From: Candidatus Nitrosopumilus sp.
GTDB lineage: Archaea > Thermoproteota > Nitrososphaeria > Nitrososphaerales > Nitrosopumilaceae
DNA: 38,058 bases
Assembly (NCBI GenBank): GCA_021268355.1
Contig: JAJETY010000013.1
Coordinates: 1 to 38,058 of the forward strand
Direction of reading: 5' to 3'
Shown: positions 26,380 through 29,039 of the stretch, in pieces
Layout of the letters: each line of letters begins with the position of its first letter
Position numbering within the stretch: position 1 is the first letter of the stretch
Position numbers and translations under genes: made by a program
Notes under the pieces: model-generated
Databases searched by the model: none
Seen by the model: the letters and a program-made list of their open reading frames with translations, nothing else
Told to the model about the DNA's origin: nothing

Positions 26380-27486
26380 ATGCAATTACTAGAATTTCAG
26401 GCTAAAGAGCTATTTCGAGAGTATGGAATTAATCTTCTAGACAGTATTTCATCAACAAATATCGAAGAAGGTAGAAAGCATGCTAAAGAGTTAGGATATC
26501 CATTTGTAATCAAAATCCAAGTACCAGTAGGAGGTAGAGGCAAGGCTGGAGGTATCCAAAAATGCCAAAATGATGATGAATTTGAGATAAAATACCCACA
26601 AGTAATGGATTTGACAATAAAGGGTGAAAAAGCAAGAGCCATTCTTCTTGAAAAGATGGCAGATATCAAAAAAGAGTTGTATCTTTCAATATTTTTGAAC
26701 CGTTCAAAGAGATGCTACACAATTATTGCATCTGCTGAAGGTGGAGTTGAGATTGAATCAGTAAAGAACCAAATTATCAAAGAGATAGGATTAGGAGAAG
26801 TATCAGACGAGGTGGCACAAGAAGTTGCAAAAGAAATGGGATTAGAAGGAAAGCACGCAGAAGGAGTGATAGACACTCTGAAGAAATTATCAAAACTTAC
26901 AATCGAAAAAGAGGCAGAGTTGGTAGAGATCAATCCATTAGCAATTATGCAAGATGATACAATTATGGCATTAGATGGAAAATTTGTTACAGATGATAAC
27001 AGTAACTTTAGACATCCAGAATTAGAAAAATATCAAGAAAAATCAGCAATTGAAGAACAAGCTGAGAAGAGCGGATTTTCATTAGTAGAATTGGATGGAG
27101 ATATTGCTGTTGTAGGAAATGGTGCAGGATTGGTAATGTCAACTCTGGACATGTTATCTGACAATGGGGGAAAGCCAGCATGTTTCTTAGATGTTGGAGG
27201 AGGTGCCACAACTGAATCAGTCTATGAAGCATTGACTTTGATAAGTAAGTTAGACAGAGTGAAAGGTATTCTAGTAAATCTGTATGGAGGAATTGTGAAA
27301 ACTACAGTTGTAGCTGAAGCATTTCTAAAGGCATACGAAGACAATGTAATTGATTTGCCAGTATTTTCAAGATTAAAGGGAACAGAGTCAGAGAAAGCAA
27401 CAGAGATGTTGCAAGGTTCTAGAACCAAAATTTTTAGCACTGTTGAGGAGGCAATTAATGCAGCAGTGATGGGGGTAAAGAAATGA
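26380..27486 (+). CDS. sucC: Succinyl-CoA synthetase beta subunit
   Basis: ATP-grasp subunit of ADP-forming succinate-CoA ligase. The N-terminal LLEFQAKELFREYGI, the ATP-grasp KIQVPVGGRGKAGGI, VEINPLAI and CFLDVGGGATTESVYEAL are diagnostic. The length of 368 aa is normal. It overlaps sucD by 4 nt (ATGA), so the subunits are made in a coupled way. In this lineage the enzyme serves the TCA reactions and links to succinyl-CoA of the carbon-fixation cycle. Confidence 0.95.
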   Translation: MQLLEFQAKELFREYGINLLDSISSTNIEEGRKHAKELGYPFVIKIQVPVGGRGKAGGIQKCQNDDEFEIKYPQVMDLTIKGEKARAILLEKMADIKKELYLSIFLNRSKRCYTIIASAEGGVEIESVKNQIIKEIGLGEVSDEVAQEVAKEMGLEGKHAEGVIDTLKKLSKLTIEKEAELVEINPLAIMQDDTIMALDGKFVTDDNSNFRHPELEKYQEKSAIEEQAEKSGFSLVELDGDIAVVGNGAGLVMSTLDMLSDNGGKPACFLDVGGGATTESVYEALTLISKLDRVKGILVNLYGGIVKTTVVAEAFLKAYEDNVIDLPVFSRLKGTESEKATEMLQGSRTKIFSTVEEAINAAVMGVKK

Positions 27487-28400
27487 CAGATATCTTTGCA
27501 TTACTAAAAGGAAATCCAGAGGATCCTGATTTCGAAAAGAAAGGAGTAATTGTACAAGGAATTACTGGGGCATATGGTTCACTTCATGCAAGAAATATGA
27601 TTGCATATGGAACAAATGTTGTAGCAGGGGTAACTCCAGGAAAAGGAGGTCAAAAATTTGAAGATAAAGTTCCAATTTACAATACAATGAAAGAAGCAGT
27701 TGATGCAACAAATGCAAAAATTTCAATTGTTTTTGTACCAGCAAAATTTTTCCTAGGCGCTGCTAAGGATGCACTAGAAGCAGGAATCAAACTTCTGGTT
27801 GCAATTCCAGAACATGTTCCAGTCAGAGACACAATGGAAGCTTTGGAGCTAGCAAAACAAAAGGATGCGGTAATCATTGGCCCAAACACACCAGGAATCA
27901 TGATCCCAGAATTAATTAAAATTGGAATAATGCCACCAATGCCTTTCAAGGCGGGAAAGATTGCAGTATTATCAAAAAGTGGAACTTTACTTTATGAGAT
28001 TTCAGATGCACTTACCAATTCAGGATTCGGTCAATCAATCACCATTGGTATTGGAGGAGATCCAGTAAATGGTACAAGACTAATCGATGCTTTTGAAATG
28101 GTCAAAGATATTCCAGATTTGGAAGGAATGGTCGTAGTAGGTGAAATAGGAGGAGACTCTGAAGAGATGTTAGCTCAAAGAATTATTGATTCAGGATTTA
28201 ACAAACCAACTGTTGCATATATTGCAGGAAGAGCTGCTCCAAAAGAGAAGAGAATGGGACATGCAGGTGCAATTGTGATGGGAACATACGGTTCAGCAGA
28301 ATCCAAAGTGTCAATGTTTAACAAGGCAAACATTCCAGTAGCAAAAAGACCAGCAGAGGTACCTGTTTTATTAGCTGGAAAGATGGAAAAATCCGATTAG
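27483..28400 (+). CDS. sucD: Succinyl-CoA synthetase alpha subunit
   Basis: CoA-binding subunit carrying the phospho-histidine, His260 in RMGHAGAIVMGTYGSAESK. The N-terminal VQGITGAYGSLHARNMIAYG binds CoA; VVAGVTPGKGGQ, IGPNTPGIM and LSKSGTLLYE follow the family order. The length of 305 aa is slightly above the usual ~290. Followed after 31 nt by the eL40 gene, which has its own Shine-Dalgarno site. Confidence 0.95.
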   Translation: MTDIFALLKGNPEDPDFEKKGVIVQGITGAYGSLHARNMIAYGTNVVAGVTPGKGGQKFEDKVPIYNTMKEAVDATNAKISIVFVPAKFFLGAAKDALEAGIKLLVAIPEHVPVRDTMEALELAKQKDAVIIGPNTPGIMIPELIKIGIMPPMPFKAGKIAVLSKSGTLLYEISDALTNSGFGQSITIGIGGDPVNGTRLIDAFEMVKDIPDLEGMVVVGEIGGDSEEMLAQRIIDSGFNKPTVAYIAGRAAPKEKRMGHAGAIVMGTYGSAESKVSMFNKANIPVAKRPAEVPVLLAGKMEKSD

Positions 28401-28944: not shown

Positions 28945-29039
28945 GGACCGGTCGTCTAGTTTGGTTTGGATGACGCACTCACACTGCGTAAGAGATCAAT
29001 TCTCCGCAAAGGTCGTGGGTTCAAATCCCATCCGGTCCA
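28945..29039 (+). tRNA. tRNA-Val (anticodon CAC) with a 20-nt intron
   Basis: Acceptor stem GGACCGG/CCGGTCC pairs perfectly (28945-28951 with 29032-29038), and A29039 is the discriminator; CCA is not encoded. The D arm has GTCT/GGAT with G-G in the loop. The anticodon stem ACGCA/TGCGT encloses CTCACAC, giving anticodon CAC at 28980-28982, which reads GTG (Val). The T arm is GTGGG/CCCAT with loop TTCAAAT. The piece between anticodon stem and T stem is 25 nt instead of 5; removing 28991-29010 leaves a normal AGGTC variable loop and a 75-nt mature tRNA. Confidence 0.92.
28991..29010 (+). other. Non-canonical tRNA intron (between positions 44 and 45)
   Basis: A relaxed bulge-helix-bulge can be drawn: exon TGCG (28985-28988) pairs with intron CGCA (29005-29008); the first bulge is TAA; an inner hairpin GAGA/TCTC closes a TCAAT loop; the second bulge is AAG. 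Cutting after the second base of each bulge removes exactly these 20 nt and rebuilds the variable loop. Splicing is inferred from this fold, not observed. Confidence 0.8.

Follow-up and report, generated by a model that had tools for sequence, protein, structure and literature searches.

A predicted bulge-helix-bulge intron in the variable loop of tRNA-Val(CAC) from Nitrosopumilus and its relatives

Results

The interrupted tRNA-Val(CAC) gene

The sequence at 28945–29039 of the window, the 38,058 nt stretch analysed here from a genome of Nitrosopumilus, a marine archaeon that oxidises ammonia, is almost certainly a tRNA-Val(CAC) gene with a bulge-helix-bulge (BHB) intron at position 44/45 (28991–29010), cut by the EndA splicing endonuclease and joined by the RtcB ligase. 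We infer that the precursor is transcribed, cleaved and ligated.

Table 1. Features of the interrupted tRNA-Val(CAC) gene, in window coordinates.
Feature	Position	Strand	Basis or remark
tRNA-Val(CAC) gene, interrupted	28945–29039	+	direct reading, ARAGORN, Rfam
5' exon, tRNA positions 1–44	28945–28990	+	anticodon CAC at 28980–28982
Central BHB helix, 5' strand TGCG	28985–28988	+	pairs with 29005–29008; compensatory changes in relatives
5' bulge TAA	28989–28991	+	predicted cut after 28990; TAA or TAT in 81/81 distinct inserts
Intron, 20 nt, between tRNA positions 44 and 45	28991–29010	+	BHB geometry and covariation, 81 distinct inserts
Intron hairpin GAGA-TCAAT-TCTC	28992–29004	+	3 bp or more in each of 81 distinct inserts, many compensatory changes
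Central BHB helix, 3' strand CGCA, within the intron	29005–29008	+	pairing and homologue comparison
3' bulge AAG	29009–29011	+	predicted cut after 29010; A(A/G/T/C)G in 81/81 distinct inserts
3' exon, tRNA positions 45–73	29011–29039	+	direct reading, Rfam

The acceptor stem (GGACCGG/CCGGTCC), the anticodon stem (ACGCA/TGCGT, with loop CTCACAC) and the T stem (GTGGG/CCCAT, with loop TTCAAAT) can be read directly from the sequence. Every stem is intact and 25 nt (28990–29014) lie between the anticodon and T stems, as a preliminary description of this DNA had reported. ARAGORN calls tRNA-Val(cac) at this place, unspliced and class II-like. The Rfam model RF00005 spans the gene entirely, treating the extra bases as an insertion, and its score of 49.7 bits exceeds the gathering cut-off of 29 bits. 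Assignment to class II was considered and rejected, since in that class the variable stem is packed directly between the anticodon and T stems, and here a fixed 10 nt tail of the CGCANNGGTC type follows the hairpin.

The genome (1.34 Mb in 73 contigs, with 39 Rfam tRNA matches) has a single Val-CAC gene, and its Val-TAC and Val-GAC genes are without an intron. The gene upstream (27483–28400) has 90–96% identity to genes of Nitrosopumilus and Marine Group I.

The BHB motif

The core of the BHB is strict, with a 4 bp central helix, bulges of 3 nt on both strands and a 4 bp stem within the intron (28992–28995/29001–29004). Its elements lie where the preliminary description had placed them. The TGCG strand of the central helix has a second role in the mature tRNA, where it belongs to the 3' side of the anticodon stem. 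Its CGCA partner in the intron is a repeat of the 5' anticodon-stem strand (28974–28977). The motif had been called relaxed, which does not hold for this core; weakness or poor conservation is confined to the outer exon–exon helix. In the predicted fold of the window precursor this outer helix consists of 2 bp (28983–28984/29012–29013) and a further 6 bp (28977–28982/29015–29020), with the 6 bp part broken by T-stem variants of relatives, such as ATGGG and GAGGG, and not kept in all genera. An outer helix belongs to the strict form of the BHB; relaxed forms may be without one.

In archaeal introns the bulges have been determined experimentally to be cut between residues 2 and 3 (PMC4307357). 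The same cuts are predicted here, and would leave a variable loop of 5 nt, AGGTC.

In the precursor the TGCG strand would pair with CGCA of the insert rather than with the 5' anticodon strand, generating the BHB. The endonuclease, most likely an (alpha-beta)2 EndA, would then cut both 3 nt bulges between residues 2 and 3, releasing 28991–29010, and ligation of A44 to G45 by RtcB would give a class I tRNA-Val of 75 nt with the variable loop AGGUC.

Conservation in the Nitrosopumilaceae

Searches with the 95 nt gene matched 91 of the 95 genomes of the genus, in most of them along its full length. Among the Nitrosopumilaceae as a whole, 243 of 250 genomes gave a match. Some of these matches are short, weak ones to other tRNAs. 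From the genus and family searches, together with named genome records, 81 distinct inserts were gathered. The intron is present in 20 of the 22 Nitrosopumilaceae genera sampled. A search with a relaxed pattern returned mostly chance matches and one unrelated interrupted tRNA, and recovered the homologue in g22.

The inserts are 16–25 nt long, apart from one version of 48 nt. This longest intron (L277; G115:C253:4885-5007) has the same BHB, and its gene was missed by ARAGORN.

Bulges of 3 nt are found on both strands in every insert. All four pairs of the central helix are formed in 80 of the 81, the remaining one having an A-C mismatch. The first central pair is T-A in 70 inserts, A-T in 6, G-T in 2, and G-C, T-G and A-C in one each, and these changes track the anticodon stem. 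The inner stem has 3–6 bp in all 81, with G-C, A-T, C-G and T-A interchanging at pairs 1–4. The preliminary description held that homologues with inserts lacking BHB potential would speak against splicing; none of the 81 is of this kind, since each has both bulges and at least three inner pairs.

Inner pairs 1–3 are paired in 81/81 inserts, compared with a mean of 46 and a maximum of 55 when the 3' arms are permuted among the sequences, a permutation that takes no account of shared ancestry. Shuffling the 20 nt insert produced a strict BHB with a 5 nt variable loop in 92 of 100,000 cases. The BHB is beyond chance expectation on the strength of these two results. Common descent alone is insufficient to account for the inner-stem pairing, because there are many pair types and the changes extend across many genera.

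The mature tRNA sequence is strongly conserved in the alignment, with the tRNA stems intact in 20 genera. The restored variable loop is AGGTC in 79 of the 81 versions and AGGCC in the other two. With AAG, AGG, ATG and ACG as 3' bulges, only a cut between residues 2 and 3 retains AGGYC, and this fixes the cut register; in the AGG, ATG and ACG homologues a cut one base upstream would spoil the constancy of the loop. The predicted register is well supported by this comparison, which also upholds the intron, its boundaries, its position at 44/45, the BHB and the restored 5 nt loop as they had been proposed for the window.

Folding of the precursor

Under constrained folding, the BHB fold of the window precursor (-35.2 kcal/mol) and its cloverleaf (-34.6 kcal/mol) are practically equal, in energies that leave out modifications and tertiary contacts. 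The two folds are mutually exclusive because the TGCG strand is common to both. The BHB energy is at or below that of the cloverleaf in 70 of 79 distinct Val(CAC) genes. For the spliced 75 nt tRNA, the fold of lowest predicted energy is the cloverleaf (-30.3 kcal/mol).

Splicing machinery

Two EndA paralogues, of 178 and 199 aa, and a single RtcB ligase gene are found in the genome. The 178 aa EndA is closest to crenarchaeal subunits with known structures, and its His and Lys contexts are those of a catalytic subunit, while the 199 aa EndA is without the catalytic His context. KPK in the former aligns with KPR of Aeropyrum pernix EndA, at the loop position of K44 and R46; in catalytic EndA a loop with Lys44 and Arg or Lys46 has been linked to relaxed substrate recognition (PMC12397907). 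At the gene level the pair has the features of a broad-specificity (alpha-beta)2 endonuclease, with putative catalytic and structural paralogues and a Lys44/Lys46-type loop. It is most likely that the two paralogues form an enzyme of this type. The same alpha2-beta2 set-up has been reported for Thaumarchaeota (PMC4090602), and is recognised here from gene sequences alone.

Presence, absence and history of the locus

Outside the family, further families of the same order and class have Val(CAC) genes that lack an intron and have a 5 nt variable loop. Within the family, such genes are found in g14, g18 and most of g15. In g15, intron-bearing genes (L133, L134 and L135) and intronless ones (L137 and L140) adjoin the same gene at the same distance. 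This neighbour encodes about 450 aa, with 84–91% identity. Similarly, the intron-bearing gene of g22 (L269) has a neighbour in common with the intronless genes L124 and L222 of g14. These shared neighbours show that the same locus occurs with and without the insert. The intron would appear to have been gained early in the Nitrosopumilaceae and later lost or replaced.

Eight genomes that are at least 91% complete (G064, G067, G091, G107, G130, G138, G139 and G193) have detected Val-GAC and/or Val-TAC genes and no detected Val-CAC gene. The gene may lie in an assembly gap, carry a highly divergent intron or be truly lost.

Discussion

Alternative explanations

The insert could instead be retained as a long variable arm, making this an odd class II-like tRNA-Val. 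The unspliced ARAGORN output has this form, and the insert hairpin is stable and compatible with the cloverleaf (-34.6 kcal/mol). Such an arm would need neither the CGCA strand nor the 3 nt bulges, yet both are held constant, in covariation with the anticodon stem, while the insert ranges from 16 to 48 nt. It would also leave about 10 nt unpaired before the T stem, and orthologues at the same locus have an ordinary 5 nt loop. Retention of the insert is therefore very improbable. Equally improbable is that the gene is a pseudogene in decay or the result of an artefactual insertion, with GUG codons read by another gene. A Val-TAC tRNA could in principle read GUG through wobble and might serve these codons, and a few relatives of high completeness have no detected Val-CAC gene. 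Against this, the stems are intact in 20 genera and the mature sequence is strongly conserved, compensatory changes maintain the BHB, and the gene is the only Val-CAC gene of its genome.

Within the reading of the insert as a spliced intron, its persistence in about 20 genera could reflect a function and not mere tolerance, for example a folding switch in which BHB and cloverleaf, being isoenergetic, alternate and so time modification of the anticodon arm. A function of any such kind is nevertheless improbable.

Comparison with known introns

Introns in the variable arm of two A. pernix tRNA-Lys have been confirmed experimentally from cDNA, one of them without the outer helix (PMC4307357). Like the Val(CAC) intron, these interrupt class I tRNAs in the variable arm and have a BHB-like motif; in tRNA-Lys(CUU) an outer flanking helix is absent (PMC4307357). 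They differ in belonging to another tRNA of another archaeal lineage and in their cDNA confirmation, the Val(CAC) intron being known from comparison of sequences. In Caldiarchaeum subterraneum, tRNA-Thr(GGU) has a predicted BHB-type intron at 45/46, also in the variable loop and one position away from that of Val(CAC), although in a different tRNA of which some copies add an intron at 24/25 (PMC3293823). tRNAscan-SE 2.0 includes a clade-specific BHB covariance model trained on noncanonical introns of Thaumarchaeota, with 107 counted; these are of the same lineage and the same kind of feature (PMC8450103).

In light of these cases, the earlier suggestion that the position of the intron deserves special notice is weak. 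The Val(CAC) intron is real but ordinary: it is conserved as a trait of the family, and its kind is well known in archaea. In the literature searched, no publication naming it in Nitrosopumilus was found, and it is quite possibly already in GtRNAdb.

Its interest is comparative, since it offers a clean case of a minimal variable-loop intron that some members of one family keep and others have lost or replaced at the same locus. The set of introns should be useful in work on intron gain and loss and as a calibration set for the prediction of BHB motifs in ammonia-oxidising archaea. It is also a caution that bacterial-style tRNA callers give such genes as unspliced tRNAs of 95 nt.

Other unusual tRNA genes

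Trp, Leu-TAA, Glu-TTC and Arg-CCT are among the expected tRNAs missing from the Rfam hits of the window's genome (E≤0.001), perhaps through larger or multiple introns or through assembly gaps. A Val(CAC)-like 3' half was found at L119 (G268:C1:372146-372172), where neither the D arm nor the anticodon stem forms normally on the 5' side; the anticodon is perhaps preceded by an intron. A tRNA-Val(CAC) gene from a different family of the same order (L123 / L279; G279:C5) carries a 13 nt insert, AGGTAACGCTGAA, at about 43/44. This insert does not match the conserved BHB. It could pair as CAGC/GCTG with a loop, of the bulge-helix-loop type, and is possibly an independent intron. An elongator-type tRNA-Met(CAT) of the window's genome (L031; C44:16583-16696, minus strand) has a 39 nt insert, apparently within the 5' strand of the anticodon stem (about 30/31), which would be a further noncanonical intron of this genome.
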